A stretch of DNA of 64,000 nt from Myxococcales bacterium 68-20 (GTDB taxonomy: Bacteria; Myxococcota_A; Polyangia; Polyangiales; Polyangiaceae), in NCBI GenBank assembly GCA_001899635.1, contig MKVQ01000012.1, positions 124,001 through 188,000 on the forward strand, read 5' to 3'. The translations under genes and the position numbers were made by a program. Under the pieces are notes generated by a model. The model did not search any database. It was not told where the DNA came from and worked only from the letters and a program-made list of their open reading frames with translations. Below are positions 54,701 to 64,000 of this stretch, piece after piece. Positions within the stretch are counted from its first letter, which is position 1. Each line of letters opens with the position of its first letter.

Positions 54701-55544
54701 AGGGAAGAAGCTCGGTGCGCTCCCGAAGCCGGGGAAGAACGACGACGCATCGAAGGCGAAGGAAGCGACCGATCGCTTCAAGGCGCTGAAGAAGGACGTC
54801 GCCGCGATTTCCCGCATGCGCATCGAGCGCCTGCAGGCGACGATGATCTCCCGGCGCCGCTGGGACGAGAGCACGTTCCGCATGCTCTTCGTCGACAAGC
54901 CGCTCGTCCTCCAGCTCGCGCGCCGTCTGGTCTGGGGTGCGTGGGACTCTGCGGGCAAGCGGAGCGCGACGTTCCGGGTCGATCTCGATCGAGCGCTCTC
55001 GCACGAACGCGACGAGGCGTTCACGCTTCCGGAGCACGCAATGGTGGGCGTCGTTCATCCTTTCGATCTCTCGAAGGAGGAGCTGACGCGCTGGGGACAG
55101 CTGTTCGCCGACTACGAGATCGTGCAACCGTTCCCGCAGATCGGACGAGAGGTGTTCCGCGCGAACGACGAGGAGAGCAAGTCCGCCTCGCTCGCGCACG
55201 AGGCGCGGACCAACTTGCTCGAGAGCCGGCTCGACCGCTCGTTCCCTGCTCCGAAGCTCGTGTTCGGACTCGAGAAGCTCGGATGGAAGCGCGGCGGAGC
55301 GAGCGATGGCGGCTCCTTCTCCGGCCACTGGAAGGACTTCGTGGGCACAGACCTGATCGCCCACGTCGAATACGACGGCGCAGTCGGGATGGGCTACATC
55401 GACGAGAAGGAGACGCTCACGCTCTCGAGCATCTCGTTCGAGCGCCAGGTGAATCGCGAGTCGACGGGTCTCCCGATCGGCGACGTCGATGCGATCGTCG
55501 TAAGCGAGGTGCTGCGTGATCTGAGCCTGCTCGAAGGAGCGTGA
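51765..55544 (+). CDS. WGR-domain and DUF4132 protein (MolR/YehI-like)
   Basis: The 1259-residue protein begins MRRFELVDGTSSKFWEI with the WGR signature GRIGSAGQTKSKEL, a domain found in PARPs and bacterial nucleic-acid-linked proteins. An Ala/Thr/Pro linker leads to a long helical HEAT-like middle part. The last 250 residues, with FRMLFVDKPLVLQLARRLVW, HPFDLSKEELTRWGQLFADY and GHWKDFVGTDLIAHVEYDGA, match DUF4132. This arrangement is known in MolR/YehI-like proteins. The ATG at 51765 gives the canonical WGR start; a GTG at 51738 is possible. It is divergent from a WD40/HEAT gene. Confidence 0.9.
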   Translation: MRRFELVDGTSSKFWEIDTEGARLTIRFGRIGSAGQTKSKELASAAKAETEAAKLVAEKTGKGYIEIASANPATEASTTTPRPARPEEEVIEAPSAAPVATVVTTTATDEGEDEGTISFDRQHFTKKLHDEIVVVSWRNAPAPYTPAPKPLSPAGTLLAQLRAVLPKVKAEAETAKGTPSSTSAERMARVYGWKSIDELDVELAANAFALFRNAAIGLETLVRTFVAAKGLAFALEALVRGAERGLIVDTDDWPYRLIEGLVPFAEHEPARADERAFSALENAAPGLYALRRLVAGADDANYASVVTAARRLSGDATNAGALAIAVVLSEETELVDAAARAILAPPPEAVRGPGAALVLTSLRNVELGRELFTRGLVVLHDDEEDSPAWTMIARLGVRAGSILAAVSEDQRDDVLTFLEAVRAPASFRALLSFLGKKSTAKSVQRLLLEHPKITAAALAPVLAQPKHADHASAKVLAAALAKARPDLDLLAAAPAASAAPSLPLATEHDLPAFLVEPPWSKKAKASADKPEKIELEVERVPLSCTFEEGDLDALAAYSDWGAEVGANAKSRTRGQWEQEIAEDHKYDRVIDLALMFVGPEELALAEWNDASDERRLYYPNAYYGGAFAVALARRGVKFAPGLLKLLRLRPSGADRMPIDVLEPVLLGYEGTEVAELFIDTFDSGKKIRAVAETWSRRHPETMAKTAIPIALAGGKRAANAIALLQSLVARDRASVVDAVARAYEGTSKKPVSQLLDAIVGTDPLAYVPAKLPKLPDLFTPKALPPIVTKKQKVLPPEAVMHVGTMLAISGSDAPYAGLRLLREACTEASLREFTWALFESWMATGSPPKEMWILHALGFLGDDETARRLTPMIRAWPGERAAARAVEALGVLANIGTDLALMLLNGIAEKVRFASIQEGARARIAEIAKRRGLTAEELGDRLVPDLGLDVRGETTLDFGPRSFRVGFDEHLQPFVVDPEGKKLGALPKPGKNDDASKAKEATDRFKALKKDVAAISRMRIERLQATMISRRRWDESTFRMLFVDKPLVLQLARRLVWGAWDSAGKRSATFRVDLDRALSHERDEAFTLPEHAMVGVVHPFDLSKEELTRWGQLFADYEIVQPFPQIGREVFRANDEESKSASLAHEARTNLLESRLDRSFPAPKLVFGLEKLGWKRGGASDGGSFSGHWKDFVGTDLIAHVEYDGAVGMGYIDEKETLTLSSISFERQVNRESTGLPIGDVDAIVVSEVLRDLSLLEGA

Positions 55545-55696
55545 GGTCGACGCGAGCGTTGCATCTTTGGGCCGAAGGGCGCGAAGCTGCGCCGTCGAGG
55601 GCGGCATCGCGACCGATCCCGCGCCTCGGATCGTCCCGTCACCGCTCGTCGGAATTTCCTATCGGCGCGGTCCATGGCAGCGTGAGAAAAGCGCGA

Positions 55697-56836
55697 ATGA
55701 CCGAGCTCAGCTTCGAGGTGGCGCGCGGGCTCGCCGCGACCATGCAGGGCTTCGGGCGTCGCCCACGGGCTCGAGCGTCGCGATGGAGGCTCGGGGCGGC
55801 GCTCGCGACGCTCACGGCGCTCGTCGTCGCGCCGCATCCGGCAGAAGCGTCCCCCGACGAGACGCCCGCGACGATCGAGCTCCGATACTTCGTCGCGAAA
55901 GGCATCGCTCGCTGCTTCTCGGAGGACGAGTTCCGCGACGCCGTTCGGGCGCGCCTCGCGGACCACTCGTTCGCCTCGCGAAGACCCACCATCGTCACGA
56001 CGAGCATCACGCGCGAAGGGTCACGGCTGCGCGCCACCGTGACGCTCCGCGAGGAAGGCGACGCCAGCTCCGAGGGCGAGGTGACGAAGGAGACCTTCGC
56101 CGCGCCCAGCGAGTGCAGGACCTTGAGCGCGGCCGCAGCCCTCGCGGTGAGCCTCGCGATCGAACGCGCGCGCAGCGAGGCTCCCCCGCCGCCCGAGGCC
56201 CCGCCCGAAGCGCCAGCCGAGACGCCACCCGAAGCACCTCCCGAGCCTGAACCCGAGCACGAACCGACGCGCGAGCCACGACGAGCAGCTCAGCCGCTCG
56301 CTCCAAGCCGACCGCCGCAGCCACTCCGTCCGCAACGCGCCCCGTTCGAGCTTCGAACACACGCCAGCCTCACCGGCGAATACGGCATCCTGCCGGGGCC
56401 ATCGATCGGAGAGTCCGTCGGTGCATCGCTGCGGATCGACGGCTGGTCGGCTGGGCTCGAGGTCGGGGCGTGGCTTCCCGCGTCGGTCTCGTCTTCCGCG
56501 AGTCGCGCCGGCGCGAAGGCATGGCTGAGCTTCATGTCCGGCTCAGCTTGCGCGGAGCGCGCTCGCTTGTTCGTATGTGGCGTCGGCACGCTCGGCGACT
56601 TTCGTGCGTCGGGGACCGGCCGCTTGCTCAGTCGCTCGTCCGGTTCCCTCTACGTCGCGCTTGGTGTGCGCCTCGGCACCGAGATCCCGCTCGTGGGGCC
56701 CTTCTCTCTCGCAGTTCATGGCAGCGTGCTCACTCCGCTCCTCCGACCGACGCTCCGCATCGGTGACGCTCTGCTCTGGCGAGCGCCGATCGCCGGGGGC
56801 GAATTGGGCATCGGCCTGCGGATGTCGATTTTGTGA
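55697..56836 (+). CDS. Exported proline-rich protein with C-terminal beta-rich domain
   Basis: The 379-residue product has a signal peptide (RWRLGAALATLTALVVAPHPAEA) after a basic stretch. Residues about 50-165 contain a periplasmic domain with ELRYFVAKGIARCFSEDEF. A Pro/Glu-rich linker (APPEAPAETPPEAPPEPEPE) follows. The last 160 residues are beta-rich and outer-membrane-like (LTGEYGILPGPSIGESVG, GSLYVALGVRLGTEIPL). No known family is evident. The ATG at 55697 is used; one at 55742 would place the signal peptide closer to the start. It begins 152 bp after the WGR-DUF4132 gene. Confidence 0.7.
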   Translation: MTELSFEVARGLAATMQGFGRRPRARASRWRLGAALATLTALVVAPHPAEASPDETPATIELRYFVAKGIARCFSEDEFRDAVRARLADHSFASRRPTIVTTSITREGSRLRATVTLREEGDASSEGEVTKETFAAPSECRTLSAAAALAVSLAIERARSEAPPPPEAPPEAPAETPPEAPPEPEPEHEPTREPRRAAQPLAPSRPPQPLRPQRAPFELRTHASLTGEYGILPGPSIGESVGASLRIDGWSAGLEVGAWLPASVSSSASRAGAKAWLSFMSGSACAERARLFVCGVGTLGDFRASGTGRLLSRSSGSLYVALGVRLGTEIPLVGPFSLAVHGSVLTPLLRPTLRIGDALLWRAPIAGGELGIGLRMSIL

Positions 56837-56869
56837 CGACCTCGCAAAGACCCGCCCAATACCTGGGTG

Positions 56870-57436
56870 ATGGCCGCGCAGATGGCCATAATCGCAGACG
56901 GCGTGAACGAGGAGCAGGTTAGGCGCGCGGACTTTCGCGCTCTCTTCCGGTCCCACTTTCGCTTCGTGTGCGTCACCCTGAGACGCCTCGGCGTCCGGGA
57001 CAGTGACGTCGAAGACGTCGCGCAGGAGGTCTTTGTCTCCGTCCACCGGAAGCTCGACAGCTACGACGCCACTCGTCCGCTCGAGCTCTGGCTCTTCGGC
57101 TTCTGCCTTCGGACGGCCTCCACGTATCGACGCCTCGCGCGTCACACCCGGCTCGTGCACGAGGAGACCGACGTCGAGATCGCCCACTCCGAGCCCTTGG
57201 CCGACGACCAGATCGCCGCGGAGCAGAACCGCCGAATGGTCCTCGCCGCGCTCGACGCCATCGACAACGACCGGCGTGCCGTCTTCGTCATGCACGACCT
57301 GAACGAGTTCCCCGCTTCGCAGATCGCCGAGATGCTCGCCCTTCCCGTCAACACCGTCTACTCGCGCCTCCGCCTCGCACGCGAGGAGTTCCGGAAGGCC
57401 GTGTTCCGCATTCGCGCGGCGCAAGGCTCACGATGA
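56870..57436 (+). CDS. ECF-type RNA polymerase sigma factor
   Basis: The 188-residue protein contains region 2 (RALFRSHFRFVCVTLRRLG, DSDVEDVAQEVFVSVHRKL, LWLFGFCLRTASTYRRLAR) and region 4 (RRAVFVMHDLNEFPASQIAE, then NTVYSRLRLAREEFRKAV). Its stop overlaps the next gene as ATGA. The order of ECF factor, single-pass TPR protein and lipoprotein genes suggests it drives this cluster. It is only distantly like the ECF factor at 9271. The start at 56870 is used; a GTG three bases earlier and an ATG at 56882 are possible. Confidence 0.9.
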   Translation: MAAQMAIIADGVNEEQVRRADFRALFRSHFRFVCVTLRRLGVRDSDVEDVAQEVFVSVHRKLDSYDATRPLELWLFGFCLRTASTYRRLARHTRLVHEETDVEIAHSEPLADDQIAAEQNRRMVLAALDAIDNDRRAVFVMHDLNEFPASQIAEMLALPVNTVYSRLRLAREEFRKAVFRIRAAQGSR

Positions 57437-58203
57437 TCGATCACACCGACAACGATCATCCGGGTCCGATCGACGCGGAGCTCCGCTCGCTCCTCGACGA
57501 CGCGCGCTCGCGCGATGCGCTGGATCCGGCGTTCGAGGAGCCCGCGCGCGAGCGGGTGCTCGGACGAGTCGAGCAGGTGCTCGATCGAGCTCCGGGCGCT
57601 GCTCGTGGCGGCTTCGGACTCCGGTCGGGTGTGATGGCCGTCTCCGTCGCTCTCATCGCAGCGCTGGCCGGAGGAAAGATCCTCGGCGGGGACCCCGGCG
57701 ACTCGTCGGATGCTCGCGCCCCCGTCGCGAGCGCCATCGCTCCGCAGGTCGCCATCGATCGTCCCGGCGCACCGCCGACCGCTCCCGCGCCGGCCCAGCC
57801 GCAAGGCGATGCCGTCCCGCTGATGCGCATCGACGAGCTCCCGTCGCCTCCGACGCCTGCTCCTGCTCGGTCGAGTCGGATCGATTCGTCGCGCGGCTCC
57901 GCGCCCTCGGGCACCGACCTCGCCGAGGAGTATCGGTTGGTCGATGGGGCGCGCGCCAAGCTGGCAGCGAAGGACTACACCGGTGCGCTCCAGTCGGTCC
58001 GCGAGCATGAGAAGCGCTTCCCGAGCGGCCAGCTGAATCAAGAGCGCGAGAGCCTCTACATCCAGGCGCTCGTCGAAACGGGGCGCATCCCGGAAGCGCG
58101 CGAGCGAGCAGAGCGCTTCCGCACGCGCTTCCCGAGCGGCCTTCTACTCCCGACCGTCGCGCGAGCCATCGCGAGCAGCGCGCCGAACTCCGCGCCTCGC
58201 TGA
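57433..58203 (+). CDS. Single-pass membrane protein with TPR-like periplasmic domain, probable anti-sigma factor
   Basis: The 256-residue product has a short acidic N terminus (residues 1-58), one membrane helix at about 65-83 (GVMAVSVALIAALAGGKIL), a Pro/Ala linker and a C-terminal TPR/YbgF-like domain (AEEYRLVDGARAKLAAKDYT, ALVETGRIPEARERAERFR). The layout of cytoplasmic stub, helix and periplasmic sensor is that of anti-sigma factors. No zinc-binding motif is seen in the stub. The gene overlaps the ECF gene by ATGA. The lipoprotein series starts 61 bp downstream. Confidence 0.82.
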   Translation: MIDHTDNDHPGPIDAELRSLLDDARSRDALDPAFEEPARERVLGRVEQVLDRAPGAARGGFGLRSGVMAVSVALIAALAGGKILGGDPGDSSDARAPVASAIAPQVAIDRPGAPPTAPAPAQPQGDAVPLMRIDELPSPPTPAPARSSRIDSSRGSAPSGTDLAEEYRLVDGARAKLAAKDYTGALQSVREHEKRFPSGQLNQERESLYIQALVETGRIPEARERAERFRTRFPSGLLLPTVARAIASSAPNSAPR

Positions 58204-58264
58204 CGTCCTCTCGCGACGACAGCAGACCGAGCCTCTTCATCTCCGTCCTCACGTCAGGGTGCAC

Positions 58265-59497
58265 ATGTTCCCCAGCAGATACAGGTCGATCTTTGTCGTG
58301 ACGATGCTCACGGGCTCCGCCGTGGCGCTCGCGAGCGGGTGCGCCGAGACCTCGATCGAGGTCGGGACGCTCGTCGATCAGGATGCGGGTCCGCAACCAC
58401 CGAGCTTCACGGATCCGGACTCCGGAAGTGACGCCGATGCGCGTGCGCAGGAGCCCGTCCTGCTCTGCATCGCGACCGCGTGCCCGGCGCCGTTCGACAC
58501 GTGCGGAACCGGCTACCGCTGCAGCACCAACCTCTCGAACGATTCGAACAACTGCGGGGAGTGCGGGAAGGTCTGTCCGGACTCGTTCGGCTACCTGAAC
58601 ATGACGTCCACGTGCGTGGATGGGACGTGCGAGCCGACGTGCGGCAAGAAGCTGGCCGGCGGCAAGTTCTGGAACTATGCAGACTGCAACGGCGTCGCCG
58701 AAGACGGATGCGAGATCAATATCTCCACCGATCCGAACAACTGCGGCGCGTGCGGGAACAAGTGCGCGGACGGCGTGGAGTGCATCGAGGGCAAGTGCGG
58801 ACTCCCTCCCGGACACGCGCTCTGCTGGGGGGAGGTCATCGACGTTCGGAACGACGACTACAACTGCGGAGCGTGCGACAACTGGTGCGAACCACCCCCG
58901 GGCGCCGACGAGCTGCCGGACCACATGGTCTACGGCTGCACCAACGGCGAGTGCGGTCAGCCGAAGTGCAAGGACGACTTTGGCGATACCTGGATGGACT
59001 GCGACGGAAACCCGAACAACGGCTGTGAGGTCTACGTCGGGTGGGACTCGTCGCTGGCCGACCCGAACAACTGCGGCGCGTGCGGGAAGAAGTGCACGGG
59101 AGATCAGATCTGCGCGGTCCGCCAACTTGCGGACCGTCCGTCATGCACCTGCGAGAACCCGCAGGAGACACGGTGTGGAAGCACCGATACCTACGACCTC
59201 GGCTGCTTCGACCTGCTGAACGATCCGAACAACTGCGGGACCTGCTTCAACAAGTGCACCGCCTACGCGCGCAATACGGCCGCGTCGTGTCGGAAGGGAG
59301 TCTGCGAGTCCGGCTGCTTGCCGGGCTGGGGTGACTGCGACGGAGACCCGAGGAACGGCTGCGAGACCAACCTCATGGTCAGTGACGGTCACTGCGGCGC
59401 GTGCGGGAACCGTTGTGACACGCAAGCTGGTCAGCCGTGCGTCGAGGGCCAGTGCGCGATGACGGAGTGCGATGCAGGGAGCGTTGTGCCGCAATGA
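58265..59497 (+). CDS. Cys-rich lipoprotein with DCDGxPxNGCE / NNCGACGxxC repeats
   Basis: The 410-residue protein has a signal peptide ending in VALASGC-AE. The body has about six copies of a Cys repeat: NNCGECGKVC, NNCGACGNKC, YNCGACDNWC, NNCGACGKKC, NNCGTCFNKC and HCGACGNRC, several preceded by DCxGxxxxGCE. These repeats are a myxobacterial surface-protein theme and must be disulfide-linked. The ATG at 58265 is used; a GTG six bases earlier is possible. Its stop overlaps the start of the next lipoprotein by ATGA. Confidence 0.85.
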   Translation: MFPSRYRSIFVVTMLTGSAVALASGCAETSIEVGTLVDQDAGPQPPSFTDPDSGSDADARAQEPVLLCIATACPAPFDTCGTGYRCSTNLSNDSNNCGECGKVCPDSFGYLNMTSTCVDGTCEPTCGKKLAGGKFWNYADCNGVAEDGCEINISTDPNNCGACGNKCADGVECIEGKCGLPPGHALCWGEVIDVRNDDYNCGACDNWCEPPPGADELPDHMVYGCTNGECGQPKCKDDFGDTWMDCDGNPNNGCEVYVGWDSSLADPNNCGACGKKCTGDQICAVRQLADRPSCTCENPQETRCGSTDTYDLGCFDLLNDPNNCGTCFNKCTAYARNTAASCRKGVCESGCLPGWGDCDGDPRNGCETNLMVSDGHCGACGNRCDTQAGQPCVEGQCAMTECDAGSVVPQ

Positions 59498-60729
59498 ACT
59501 GCCCGTCGAAGAAGAATCTCATGGTGGCGTCAGGCCTCGTCGGCCTTCTCATGCTCGCCTCGGCGGTCGCGAGTTGCGCCGAGTCTGAAGCAGGAACGGA
59601 GGCGCCCGAGCCGACGCATCCTCTCCCCGATGCGCAAGCGGACCTCGACGCGGGCGCGGATGCATCGGCGGACGCCGACTGCCTCGGCGACGGCGACGGC
59701 GGCTGCACGACCCACGAGCTCACCTGCGCCGAGGCCGACTTCTGCGCGGTCACCACCGGGGTCGATAGCCGCTACGCGCTCCTCGACGTATGGGGCACGT
59801 CGGACAAGGACGTGTGGGCGGTAGGCTCGGGCGGCACGGTCATCCACTGGGACGGCTCCGCGTGGAAGGGCATCCCCCTCGGGCGGAGAGAAACGCTTCG
59901 CGGCGTGGGCGGCCGCTCCGCGAACGACGTGTTCATCGTCTCGTCGATGAACGTCGTCTTTCACACCACGGGCGTTCAGAACGGCAGCGCCACCTTCACC
60001 CTCGAGGCGCCCGTCGATCGCCAGAACCCCAACAACTCCCAGGGATACACGCTGACGAAGGTCTGGGCGGCCCCGACGGGCGAGCTCTTCGTCGGTGGTC
60101 CGGCCACGTTCACGTCGCCTCAGAACAGCCTCTGGCGTCATCATCCCGGCGTCGTTCCGAACGAAGGCGGGGCTTATCCCTGGGAGGCCGCGTCGACGTT
60201 CTGCACGGTGCAGCCGTGCTTCAGCGTCAACGCCATCTGGGGAACGAGCGCGAACGATATCTGGGTCGTCGGGAAAGATGGCGGCCTCCGCCGGTCGAAG
60301 GGCCCCGTCGGCGGCGGCGGCGCCGAGCAGTGGGACAACATCAGGACGACGCTCACGACCGCCGAGCTCAACGGGATCTGGGGGAGCAGCGCGTCGGACG
60401 TGTGGATCGTCGGCGATGAAGGGACGATCCGGCACTGGGCGAACGACGGCACGGAGCGTTGGGAGATCGTGGAGTCTCCCACGAAGAAGAACCTGCGTGC
60501 GGTGTGGGGGACGAGCCCGACAGACGCGTGGGCCGTCGGCGATGAAGGGACGATCCTGCACTGGGACGGTAAGGCGTGGAGCCTCGCGACTGCGACCTTG
60601 CCGGTCGGACCGAAGCCGCGCCTCTACGGCGTGTGGGGGAGCGGTCCGAACGACGTGTGGGTCGTGGGCGAAGCCATCGCTCTCCACTTCACGGGAGCAA
60701 AATCCCCGATGACGACGAAGGCCAACTGA
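59494..60729 (+). CDS. Lipoprotein with WG..VW..G beta-propeller-like repeats (first)
   Basis: The 411-residue protein has a lipoprotein signal (LASAVASC-AE) and an Asp/Ala-rich linker (ADLDAGADASADADC). The body has about six repeats of the form DVWGTSDKDVWAVGSGG, GIWGSSASDVWIVGDEG and VWGTSPTDAWAVGDEG, each followed by an HWDG-type strand. Such repeats build beta-propellers. The gene overlaps the Cys-rich gene by ATGA and is followed after two bases by a related gene. The role is probably surface binding; the ligand is unknown. Confidence 0.85.
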   Translation: MNCPSKKNLMVASGLVGLLMLASAVASCAESEAGTEAPEPTHPLPDAQADLDAGADASADADCLGDGDGGCTTHELTCAEADFCAVTTGVDSRYALLDVWGTSDKDVWAVGSGGTVIHWDGSAWKGIPLGRRETLRGVGGRSANDVFIVSSMNVVFHTTGVQNGSATFTLEAPVDRQNPNNSQGYTLTKVWAAPTGELFVGGPATFTSPQNSLWRHHPGVVPNEGGAYPWEAASTFCTVQPCFSVNAIWGTSANDIWVVGKDGGLRRSKGPVGGGGAEQWDNIRTTLTTAELNGIWGSSASDVWIVGDEGTIRHWANDGTERWEIVESPTKKNLRAVWGTSPTDAWAVGDEGTILHWDGKAWSLATATLPVGPKPRLYGVWGSGPNDVWVVGEAIALHFTGAKSPMTTKAN

Positions 60730-60731
60730 CG

Positions 60732-62039
60732 ATGACCCCCATCACGAACCGGCGGATCCTCTTCACCACGCTTCTCGCCTCTGCCCTCGCCGCGCCAGCG
60801 ATCGCTTGCTCGAACGGCGACGACACGAACGGCATCAGCGACGACGGACAGCCCGACGCGAGCGCTCCCGACGCGCCCGCGATCCCGAACGACGCAGAGG
60901 ACGCTTCTGCCCCGGACGGCGACGCGAGCACGGAGGCCGGCGCCACGGATGCAGCTCCGCGCACGTGCTCCGAGGACGCGGTCTGCCATACACCGCTGCC
61001 TCCGAGCTCGTTCCTGAGGGACGTATGGGGCGACGGCGACGGCGTGGTCTGGGCCATCGGCTGGAAGCACCGCCTCCACACCAACGCCGACGGCGTCATC
61101 CTTCGCTGGGACGGCACAGCCTGGACAGAACATTCCACGATCCCGTTGCGCCTCAACGCCGTGTGGGGGAGCAGCCCGACGGACATCTGGGTCGGAGGCG
61201 ACGGCGGTCTCTTCCACGGGACGGGCCCGTCCTCGGCCGCGATCACGTGGACGAAGGTGCGGAGCGAGCCCATCCTCTCGATCTGGGGCTCGAGCGCGAA
61301 CGACGTCTGGGCCGTCGGTCACACACAATACTCCTTCAACGGGAAGGTGCTTCACTACCGAGGCGGTGGCGACGGCTGGGAGATCGATCCGATCTCGTCG
61401 CGCCCGGCCGCGTATCGAAAAGTGTGGGGCACGAGCGCCTCCGACGTGTGGCTCGGCGCGAACGAGTTCTCCACATGCGGATACGACCACTGCAACGGCA
61501 CGCGCGCGTTCGCCCTGCACAGAGCTCCTGACGGTACGTGGAGCGAGGATGGGCTGCCCGATTTCATCGGCCTCGGGCAGGGGGGCGGCCTCAACCCCGG
61601 CAGCGAGTTCTCCGGCGGCGGTTCGATCACGGAGGGCAGCGTCTGGATGATGGGCAGCCGGGCGCCGACGACGTACGAGTACCCGACGTGGGGCCCCGTC
61701 ACCGACGTGCTCTTCGTCGGCACGCGGAAGGCCGACGGCTCCGGCTACACCTGGTCCGACACGACGTTCGGGACGTGCATCGGGTTCGACTGCAAGGGCA
61801 TCTGGTTCAATCGCGCGGTCTGGGGAAAGACCCCGAACGACGTGTACCTCGCCGGTGACCAGGGCCAGCTCCGACACTGGAACGGGACGAGCTTCTCCTA
61901 CGTCAAGACCAAGCTCGAGAAGATCCCCTTGATGACCTCGTTCTACGCGATGTGGGGCTCGTCGAGCACCGATCTCTGGATCGTTGGCGACGAGGTCGCG
62001 CTCCACAAAGTCGACAAGAGCGAGCGCTCCAAACTCTGA
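60732..62039 (+). CDS. Lipoprotein with WG..VW..G beta-propeller-like repeats (second)
   Basis: The 435-residue paralogue of the preceding protein has signal ASALAAPAIAC-SN, a long Asp/Ala/Pro linker (PDASAPDAPAIPNDAEDAS) and repeats such as AVWGSSPTDIWVGGDGG, SIWGSSANDVWAVGH and KVWGTSASDVWLGANEF. A Gly-rich insert (LGQGGGLNPGSEFSGGGS) breaks the pattern. It starts two bases after the previous stop, so co-translation is likely. The two proteins have diverged strongly outside the repeats, indicating an old tandem duplication. Confidence 0.85.
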   Translation: MTPITNRRILFTTLLASALAAPAIACSNGDDTNGISDDGQPDASAPDAPAIPNDAEDASAPDGDASTEAGATDAAPRTCSEDAVCHTPLPPSSFLRDVWGDGDGVVWAIGWKHRLHTNADGVILRWDGTAWTEHSTIPLRLNAVWGSSPTDIWVGGDGGLFHGTGPSSAAITWTKVRSEPILSIWGSSANDVWAVGHTQYSFNGKVLHYRGGGDGWEIDPISSRPAAYRKVWGTSASDVWLGANEFSTCGYDHCNGTRAFALHRAPDGTWSEDGLPDFIGLGQGGGLNPGSEFSGGGSITEGSVWMMGSRAPTTYEYPTWGPVTDVLFVGTRKADGSGYTWSDTTFGTCIGFDCKGIWFNRAVWGKTPNDVYLAGDQGQLRHWNGTSFSYVKTKLEKIPLMTSFYAMWGSSSTDLWIVGDEVALHKVDKSERSKL

Positions 62040-62056
62040 AGCGAAGGCGCAGGTTC

Positions 62057-63406
62057 ATGAACCGCCGAGAACGATTCTATTTCATCGTGGCAGCGCCGCT
62101 GGTGGCGGCGAGCGTGCTCCTCGCTTGCAGCGACGACGAGCGGCAAGTCTTCGAGGAAGCGCCCGACGCGGGCCCGGACTCGCTGCCGAGCCTTCCCGAA
62201 GCCGCGACGCCGCTCGATGACGCCGGCGTACCCGACGTGCGCGTTCCGGTCGATGCGAGCGACGAGCCCGTGGTGTGCACCGCAAAGCCGTGCGTCACGC
62301 AGCTCACCGGAGGCGGATTTCATTTCTGCGCTCTCCTCGACGACAAGACCGTCCGCTGCTGGGGAAACGCGTATCGCGCGCTCGGCATCTACGACGCGGG
62401 CGGCGATCCTTCCCCGGCGCAGCCGACCCCGATGTCGATGGGGCTTTCGGGGGTGGAGCAGATCAGCGCGGGGAACCAGACGACGTGCGCACGCCTGACG
62501 GACGGCACGGTGACGTGCTGGGGCGCGAACTATGCGAACGAGCTGGGCCTCGATCCGCCGAAGTCCGACTACGTGGCTCACGACCCCGCGCTCGTCGCGT
62601 TCGACGGCGGCGTGCTCGACGGCGTTACGCGGGTCGACGTCGGCACGACCGGGGTGGTGTTCGCCACGAAGGCCTCCGGAGAGCTCTGGTCGTGGGGCGA
62701 CAACGCCGAGGACGTGCTCGGCCGAATGAAGGAGGCCAGAAACTACGTGGGACCCGGCCGGGCGACGGACTTCGCCGGCGAGAAGATCCGGCGCGCCGGA
62801 GGCGTGGTAGCTCGGGACCAGTACGGGACCGGCTTCGCCATCACCTACGATGGACGGCTCCTCACGTGGGGAACCTCGAAGTCGACGGTCGCGTATCCAG
62901 GTCCGGTCCCGATCGCCGTCGCGGGTTTCGAAAACGTGAGCAGCGCTGCGGGGATCACGGAAAACGTCTGCGCGGTTGCGGATGGACGCCTCTACTGCTG
63001 GGGGCTCAGCGGCACCAAGGCCTGCTCCGGGAGCGCCGACCCCATCATGAGCCCGCTCCAGATCCGGACGCGAGGCGACGCCCCCGCGCAGCAGGTCAGC
63101 GTCAATAGCAGCAACACCTGCGTGCGGCTGACCGACGGCACGATCGAGTGCTGCGGGAGCGACTCTTTCGGACAGCTCGGAACGGGCATCACCGACGCGG
63201 GACCTTCGGCCGCCTCGCCGCTCTTGACCAAGGCCACAGCGTTCACCGGGCACGCCGTTCAGGTCGTCATCGGCAACAGCACGACATGTGCGCTCGTCCA
63301 GGGCGGAGCCGTGCAGTGCTGGGGCAGCAATCAATACGGTGAGCTCGGCCAGGGCACGCGAGACAACGAACGTCATCCCGTACCCGTCACCGTCACGTTC
63401 GACTGA
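62057..63406 (+). CDS. RCC1-repeat-like lipoprotein
   Basis: The 449-residue protein has signal AASVLLAC-SD and a Pro/Asp/Ala linker. The body has RCC1/BNR-like blades with regularly spaced cysteines: HFCALLDDKTVRCWGNAYRA, TTCARLTDGTVTCWGANY, NVCAVADGRLYCWGLSG, NTCVRLTDGTIECCGSDSFG and TTCALVQGGAVQCWGSNQYG. Such proteins form seven-bladed propellers and are frequent in myxobacterial surface proteins. It starts 17 bp after the previous stop, with a Cys-stabilised fold suited to the outside of the cell. Confidence 0.87.
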   Translation: MNRRERFYFIVAAPLVAASVLLACSDDERQVFEEAPDAGPDSLPSLPEAATPLDDAGVPDVRVPVDASDEPVVCTAKPCVTQLTGGGFHFCALLDDKTVRCWGNAYRALGIYDAGGDPSPAQPTPMSMGLSGVEQISAGNQTTCARLTDGTVTCWGANYANELGLDPPKSDYVAHDPALVAFDGGVLDGVTRVDVGTTGVVFATKASGELWSWGDNAEDVLGRMKEARNYVGPGRATDFAGEKIRRAGGVVARDQYGTGFAITYDGRLLTWGTSKSTVAYPGPVPIAVAGFENVSSAAGITENVCAVADGRLYCWGLSGTKACSGSADPIMSPLQIRTRGDAPAQQVSVNSSNTCVRLTDGTIECCGSDSFGQLGTGITDAGPSAASPLLTKATAFTGHAVQVVIGNSTTCALVQGGAVQCWGSNQYGELGQGTRDNERHPVPVTVTFD

Positions 63407-63424
63407 GGATCGAGGAGAATCGTC

Positions 63425-64000
63425 ATGCGGTTGGATTTCACCGTCGCGTTCGTCTCGGTGTGCGCCATCGCCTTTGCGTCCGCCTCGTGCGCTGGTCAAA
63501 GCCGTTCCTTCATCGAAGAGCCGCCGGGCGGTCAGCTCGACACGGACGGCGGCGGCGCCGAGCCACCGCCGTCTTGCGAAGGCCTCCGCTGCTCGCGTGA
63601 CCTGAAGCGGGTGGTCGACGGGTGCACGGAGGACGTCGTCCAAGAGTGTGGGCAGGAGAAGGGGTGTGCGAAGGGGACGTGCGTCGACCCGTGCACCGCC
63701 GCCGAGGTCGCGAAGGGATCGACCGGCTGCTCCTTCTTCACGCTCCCGCCGGACGAGCCCAACTATGGCGTCGGATCCTGCTTCGCGGCGATGATCGCGA
63801 ACACGTGGGACCTTCCCGTGACCATCACGGCCGAGTACGGCGCTGCGCCGCTCGATCTCGGCGCTTCGCTCTTCACGGCGGACATGGTCGGGACGGACGT
63901 GAAGTACACGAAGCTCGAAGGTCCGCTCCCGCCGGGGCAGGTCGCTCTCGTCTTCCTTTCAGAGATCCGCCCCGCGCCCAAGGGCAGCACCGGCAGCTGT
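63425..64000 (+). CDS. IgGFc-binding-like lipoprotein, 3' end outside window
   Basis: The first 192 residues are visible. The signal ends in SASC-AG. A Cys-rich stretch with CEGLRCSRDLKRVVDGCTED and CGQEKGCAKGTCVDPC is followed by KGSTGCSFFTLPPDE and GSCFAAMIANTWDLPVTITA. This matches the N-terminal part of the large IgGFc-binding-type proteins of myxobacteria, which are secreted or surface adhesins. GAGGAG precedes the ATG by about eight bases. It is the fifth lipoprotein gene of the cluster, 18 bp after the RCC1-like gene. Confidence 0.82.
   Translation, partial: MRLDFTVAFVSVCAIAFASASCAGQSRSFIEEPPGGQLDTDGGGAEPPPSCEGLRCSRDLKRVVDGCTEDVVQECGQEKGCAKGTCVDPCTAAEVAKGSTGCSFFTLPPDEPNYGVGSCFAAMIANTWDLPVTITAEYGAAPLDLGASLFTADMVGTDVKYTKLEGPLPPGQVALVFLSEIRPAPKGSTGSC

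Follow-up and report, generated by a model that had tools for sequence, protein, structure and literature searches.

Independent histories of a control module and a surface-protein module in a lipoprotein cassette repeated across the genome of Myxococcales bacterium 68-20

Introduction

At one end of the window analysed here (64,000 nucleotides, positions 124001-188000 of contig MKVQ01000012.1), the genes of an ECF sigma factor and of a partner protein (PART) are followed by five genes for lipoproteins. How is such a unit built, is it confined to this locus, and does its sigma factor govern the surface proteins encoded behind it? The genome of Myxococcales bacterium 68-20 amounts to 11.9 Mb in 52 contigs, with a contamination estimate of 4.2%. 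Searches of open-access papers turned up no account of the cassette, of its components or of an expansion of ECF factors in these bacteria.

Organization of the unit

An earlier note, made from the letters of the window alone, had described overlapping ECF and partner genes and, behind them, closely spaced genes for a Cys-rich, two propeller, one RCC1-like and one IgGFc-binding-like lipoprotein. This arrangement is borne out (Table 1). The ECF and PART genes overlap by ATGA, and the gaps before the five lipoprotein genes are, in order, 55, -4, 2, 17 and 18 nt. The family names are upheld by Pfam and NCBIfam profile matches, those of the propellers being weak or without a clear match. The operon exists, and its gene order, which recurs in more than 110 places, is far beyond chance. 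However, it is not led by the ECF gene, as had been thought: OMP, the gene immediately upstream, is the first of the unit. The last gene runs past the end of the window, with its stop at 65,206. The advice to look beyond 64 kb for more members proved sound, two further whole cassette copies being found head to tail directly 3′ of the unit.

Table 1. Features of the unit, numbered from the first nucleotide of the window
Feature	Positions	Strand	Remarks
OMP gene	55697..56836	+	first gene of unit; start codon uncertain, 55541-55697
ECF sigma factor gene	56867..57436 (ATG at 56870)	+	PF04542/PF08281, TIGR02937
PART gene (ECF partner; presumed anti-sigma/sensor)	57433..58203	+	TPR like BamD/YbgF
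Cys-rich lipoprotein, whole gene	58259-59497	+	
Cys-rich gene, 5′ part: signal peptide, lipobox Cys, linker	58259..58400, right border approximate	+	control head
Cys-rich (STIG1-like) domain, start of the putatively exchangeable tail module	58400..59497	+	PF04885, NF041328
Propeller 1 lipoprotein, YCF48-like	59494..60729	+	PF14870, weak
Propeller 2 lipoprotein	60732..62039	+	matched by own HMM of propeller 1
RCC1-like propeller lipoprotein	62057..63406	+	PF13540 E=2e-36, PF00415 E=7.5e-23
IgGFc-binding-domain lipoprotein	63425..64000 in window, to 65206 (L009:9425-11206)	+	PF17517; end of tail and unit

Proteins encoded by the unit

The ECF protein (189 aa) contains sigma-70 regions 2 (r2, E=1e-8) and 4 (r4_2, E=2e-12) without regions 1 and 3, which places it among the ECF factors, and all three of its profiles score over cut-off. 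OMP matches no Pfam or NCBIfam family. It has a signal peptide. In its AlphaFold model (pLDDT 80), a periplasmic beta-alpha-beta-beta-beta-alpha domain, in which two Cys are conserved, is joined by a Pro-rich linker to an 8-stranded outer-membrane barrel; NspA, OmpA and OmpX are its best structural matches in Foldseek. PART would consist of two short helices in a poorly conserved N-terminus, one membrane helix predicted at low confidence, a disordered low-complexity stretch that bears a V-D-x-L-P motif, and, at the C-terminus, a confidently modelled TPR domain. No anti-sigma match to PART was found in Pfam or NCBIfam; its role as anti-sigma factor and sensor is presumed.

In the tail, the full-length IgGFc protein matches its profile at E=1.9e-106 (356 bits for a cut-off of 25.6), and IgGFc binding is predicted from this domain. 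The RCC1 protein carries RCC1 repeats, both profiles lying above their curated cut-offs. The Cys-rich protein matches STIG1-like PF04885 (E=7.5e-8) and also NF041328 (E=5.9e-21), yet below the cut-off of the latter. Propeller 1 stays below the cut-off of its YCF48-like profile (E=1e-5), and propeller 2 has no clear Pfam match. The common Asp/Ala/Pro linker that the earlier note saw behind the lipid Cys is found genome-wide in all five families, D, A and P together making up 0.32-0.45 of it, compared with 0.23 in the protein bodies. The notion of disulfide-rich adhesins fits the Cys-rich lipoprotein only (about 15% Cys); Cys makes up 3.4% of the RCC1, 1.8% of the IgGFc and 0.6% of the propeller proteins, and adhesion is putative. 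Behind its lipid Cys, the Cys-rich lipoprotein shows a short aliphatic-Gly motif in 0.36 of copies and a PxF motif in 0.51, the corresponding fractions in the other four lipoproteins being 0.03-0.07 and 0-0.10; both patterns were picked post hoc, after inspection of the sequences.

Copy number and conservation

Searching the same genome by tblastn gave more than 120 matches with the PART query and at least 150 with the ECF query. The 140 regions fetched were re-annotated with an own HMM for each gene, yielding 147 ECF (a minimum for the genome), 142 PART, 139 OMP, 131 RCC1, 129 Cys-rich, 121 IgGFc and 241 propeller genes, the HMM of propeller 1 also picking up second propellers. Complete cassettes in the order ECF-PART-Cys-rich-propeller(s)-RCC1-IgGFc number 114, with a median span of 9,381 bp. 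Exactly two propellers are present in 110 of them, and in 101 OMP lies directly upstream on the strand of ECF. Since about 10 of the 127 IgGFc genes that exceed 600 bits in a genome-wide profile search lie beyond the fetched regions, the total is near 125. In five cases, a head (OMP-ECF-PART) that lacks this tail has other lipoproteins with a similar start behind it.

The median identity to the nearest copy is 0.63 for ECF, 0.48 for PART and 0.70 for IgGFc, and any pair of copies reaches at most 0.80 in ECF and 0.90 in IgGFc. The nearest named relatives are Labilithrix metagenome genomes; every genome in the comparison is a draft assembly, and most or all of them are MAGs. The Labilithrix MAGs have the same cassette gene order, and many of their cassettes have a specific orthologue in the 68-20 genome, at 79-91% nucleotide identity in most pairs. 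Median dN/dS over the eight cassette genes is 0.16-0.42, indicative of purifying selection. In most pairs, the DNA conserved across species starts 56-207 bp ahead of the OMP model start, and in most it ends no more than about 17 bp from the IgGFc stop. One same-genus genome has about 33 strong IgGFc genes, and the other genomes of the genus 0-17 matches. The cassette copies are old and have diverged, and purifying selection acts on them. A single design, joining a sigma-factor circuit to a five-protein surface module, recurs in more than 110 selected copies and occupies about 1.07 Mb, close to 9% of the DNA of this genome, in the 114 complete cassettes.

Two modules with independent histories

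Have the genes of the cassette been inherited together? Pairwise-identity matrices were compared over 97 full cassettes (Spearman r, 99 permutations). Among the five lipoproteins, r is 0.70-0.82 and the nearest copy is the same in 51-62 of the 97 cassettes. OMP, ECF and PART also agree with each other (r 0.35-0.39; same nearest copy in 41-49). From one group to the other, r ranges from -0.04 to 0.08, for permutation maxima of 0.07-0.13, and the nearest copy coincides in 2-7 cassettes. Correlations inside the head are moderate only.

In a segment scan, the switch of allegiance falls between PART and the Cys-rich gene: every sixth of PART that tracks anything tracks ECF and OMP, and every sixth of the Cys-rich protein tracks RCC1 and IgGFc. 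The DNA of close-tail pairs refines this border. Their homology starts 7-130 bp into the Cys-rich gene and mostly stops no more than 22 bp from the IgGFc stop codon. The signal peptide of the Cys-rich protein, with the first residues after the lipid Cys, shows 0.27 identity in close-head pairs versus a background of 0.17 (p=1e-3), and its linker likewise tracks the head (p=8e-5); close-tail pairs are at background. Hence the module border lies inside the Cys-rich gene, behind anchor and linker. The head is made up of OMP, ECF and PART together with the first lipoprotein's signal peptide and linker; the tail is the remainder.

Tails at 0.68-0.84 identity are found on unrelated heads (0.20-0.33; 30 pairs shown). 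Tandem neighbours have similar tails (median 0.57 vs 0.35, p=1e-4) but not similar heads. From these comparisons, copies have exchanged their control half and their surface-protein half. With about 125 of them, the cell would own a large mix-and-match stock of surface coats.

A chimera and its crossover box

An exchange can be followed at the nucleotide level in the second cassette of L194, from another Labilithrix genome (L194:15009-21716). Its head corresponds to that of the cassette at C40:523481 in the 68-20 genome, at 80-90% identity per 200-nt window (2739 bits), the tail of that cassette scoring 402 bits. Its tail corresponds to that of the cassette at C17:74150 (64-92% per window, 4170 bits), the head of which scores 0. 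The crossover maps to the SYC codons, immediately ahead of PSSQCPPGWTTCPDSRFPCD and just behind the lipid-anchor linker. The PSSQCPPGWTTCPDSRFPCD stretch is a DNA box conserved across copies, with a mean column conservation of 0.75 versus 0.55 in the linker, as measured on the 51 cassettes that are alignable with the strict motif. The position of the crossover at this box points to homologous recombination through it as the probable mechanism of exchange. At PART-tail junctions, no conserved recombination site other than this coding box was found. These species share little gene order in general (the 10-kb flank of the L214 cassette falls on four contigs), so that exchange events can be assigned neither a date nor a locus. 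A cassette of L207 was rejected as a swap example, its head-best cassette scoring nearly as high over the tail.

Promoter and transcription unit

Gaps and upstream regions were searched across copies by EM with an order-4 Markov background; a mononucleotide background had let the search drift to the GCTCGAGC bias of the genome. One shared motif, g-n-TAG-nn-T, was obtained before OMP (log-likelihood ratio 169 vs 20 for random DNA); it lies a median of 62 bp ahead of the point where the OMP model match begins and looks like a sigma-70 -10 box (TAnnnT). With regard to separate promoters for each gene, which the earlier note had counted against its own proposal, the motif model is high before 59% of OMP genes, a figure inflated because the model was trained on this set, and before 2-10% of internal genes, where the threshold leads one to expect 5%.

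The restriction of the shared motif to OMP, and the conservation of DNA from OMP to the IgGFc stop, support a single transcription unit, which would extend over all these genes. In this respect the proposal of one operon is supported. Control by its own sigma factor is unproven, because OMP leads the unit, the motif is of the sigma-70 type and an ECF-type site (GGAAC -35, CGTC-like -10) was not found before the cassette or in the OMP-ECF and PART-tail gaps, where copy-specific sites could be missed.

Alternative explanations

The data are probably best explained by a two-module surface-display cassette in about 125 copies, in which an envelope-sensing head has been recombined onto exchangeable surface tails. 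Had cassettes been duplicated whole only, the correlation between head and tail would have been lost through saturation of fast-evolving heads, and head identities are indeed low (medians 0.35 for ECF, 0.26 for PART and 0.20 for OMP). However, these saturated heads still agree among themselves on the nearest copy, tails of 0.84 identity sit on heads at background level, and the signal peptide of the first lipoprotein tracks the head. The L194 chimera, with its head at 80-90% nucleotide identity, contradicts whole duplication, and this reading is very improbable. Still harder to credit is a repeat-driven misassembly of a metagenome-derived genome. The fragmentation into contigs, the contamination estimate and the MAG origin of the related genomes would suit it, but the copies are too diverged to collapse, and the same order and breakpoint recur on many contigs and in several independent genomes.

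Sharp ends of homology at OMP and at the IgGFc stop could also denote a transposable unit moving as a block from site to site, all the more as the flanks of one species' cassette match those of other cassettes in the 68-20 genome. This site-to-site mobility lost ground when gene order between the species proved low in general. Moreover, L198 matches its own locus in the downstream flank, and L184 and L185 do so in their upstream flanks; no recombinase gene or conserved end is seen within the unit, and a motif search of gaps and upstream regions returned the -10 box only. Such movement is unlikely. More weight, although clearly less than to the two-module reading, may be given to the idea that the ECF factors do not control their own cassettes, which would be constitutive sigma-70 units, the ECFs acting elsewhere or in a cross-talking network. 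The position of the TAnnnT motif and the lack of an ECF-type motif in the gaps agree with it. On the other side, one ECF and one PART are coupled to each tail in about 114 copies, OMP, ECF and PART co-evolve, and a search for common motifs would miss promoters specific to each copy.

A possible mechanism

In the two-module cassette, the head, from the sigma-70-type promoter to the linker of the first lipoprotein, would be an envelope-signalling unit. The barrel of OMP and the periplasmic TPR domain of PART may monitor the condition of the outer membrane or detect when the first lipoprotein arrives. It may be imagined that the N-terminus of this lipoprotein is what the sensor reads, because the two are inherited together. 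The cytoplasmic end of PART would bind ECF and hold or release it, and the released factor would transcribe its targets, putatively the cassette itself or other genes. The five lipoproteins of the tail would form an assembly at the cell surface, with adhesion, recognition, predation and phage evasion as candidate roles. Recombination between paralogous cassettes, at the box behind the linker and near the IgGFc stop, would join tails to other heads, and in this way the wiring of sensor input to surface output would change in the course of evolution. One may go further, tentatively, and imagine a combinatorial repertoire of more than 100 insulated ECF heads, each reading the N-terminal tag of its own lipoprotein, with tails freely swapped at the conserved box and new wirings arising within populations for recognition, predation or evasion; taken as a whole, this extension is rather doubtful. 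The cassette set offers natural data on how more than 100 related ECF circuits are kept apart and on how regulatory input is re-wired to surface output by recombination.

Comparison with known systems

Cell-surface signalling by ECF factors is known from systems of the FecI-FecR-FecA type and from the ECF/anti-sigma-controlled Sus loci of Bacteroides. As in these, genes for an ECF factor, for a partner predicted to cross the membrane once and to have a periplasmic domain, and for an outer-membrane protein accompany those of the surface lipoproteins that they would serve, in many parallel copies per genome. In contrast, PART has TPR and no FecR domain, and the cassette has no TonB-dependent receptor or transducer with a signalling domain, whereas OMP combines an 8-stranded barrel like that of OmpX or OmpA with a periplasmic domain at its N-terminus. 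Further differences are the single fixed tail of five lipoproteins, repeated about 125 times, and the apparent exchange of heads and tails by recombination.

Lipoprotein sensing at the outer membrane is represented by OmpA-RcsF. An 8-stranded barrel and the N-terminus of a surface lipoprotein could likewise form a sensing pair in the cassette, a contact suggested by the co-inheritance of the two; the signal would, however, reach the ECF factor via a TPR partner. Gene-conversion repertoires of surface proteins, such as pilE/pilS and vlsE, resemble the cassette in that exchangeable sequence follows a fixed 5′ end (promoter, signal peptide), the two meeting at a conserved box. Unlike them, every copy of the cassette has its own promoter and head, a whole operon of five genes is exchanged, and the exchange observed is one between species, exchange within a strain being hypothetical.

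The head in other genera

Outside the Labilithrix group, IgGFc genes are mostly solitary. Of 57 genomes from the order, 45 carry the PART family, with 1-17 copies in those other than 68-20, and OMP, ECF and PART stand together in all ten loci sampled from other genera. The triad is apparently an order-wide unit of putative envelope signalling that had not been described. In another family of the order, a locus of L247 reads IgGFc-OMP-ECF-PART, followed by a weak Cys-rich match. In other genera, too, some heads have different lipoproteins with a similar start behind them.

Tandem arrays and variant cassettes

Some cassettes of the Myxococcales bacterium 68-20 genome are found in tandem arrays of two to four, where adjoining copies tend to have similar tails (the five-lipoprotein part) and unrelated heads (genes for the outer-membrane barrel, OMP, the ECF factor and its membrane partner, with the signal peptide/linker of the first lipoprotein). 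In some cassettes, the OMP gene lies on the strand opposite its ECF gene or 3′ of the IgGFc-binding lipoprotein gene, and the head would thus be open to rearrangement.

At five loci, orphan heads (OMP-ECF-partner) precede a different lipoprotein or Cys-rich protein. The proteins encoded there include a 391-aa protein, a Cys-rich repeat protein and a 635-aa VWA-like protein, among others, and several have a similar N-terminal start. It looks as though the same control head had been joined to surface proteins of other kinds.

The great majority of genomes of the order have STIG1-like Cys-rich repeats (matches in 51 of 57 genomes, more than 100 in some), with none in 14 control genomes. Several cassettes carry one or two additional RCC1 genes 3′ of the IgGFc gene.

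Tandem arrays and variant loci (C, contig; L, locus)
Feature	Position	Strand
Tandem array L066-L069	C17:56100-95070	
Tandem array that includes the window's cassette	C12:179781-208331	
Further tandem arrays	C4, C16, C33, C40, C48, C6	
OMP, altered position/strand	C3:11415-12407	
OMP, altered position/strand	C44:108627-109640	
OMP, altered position/strand	C8:184822-185874	
OMP, altered position/strand	C48:316691-317695	
Orphan head L054	C14:156587	+
Orphan head L065	C17:9921	+
Orphan head L046	C10:107046	-
Orphan head L089	C27:147846	-
Orphan head L135	C43:74324	-
Extra RCC1, example	C45:2225-15160	
Extra RCC1, example	C36:134586-145280	
Extra RCC1, example	C42:244178-255042
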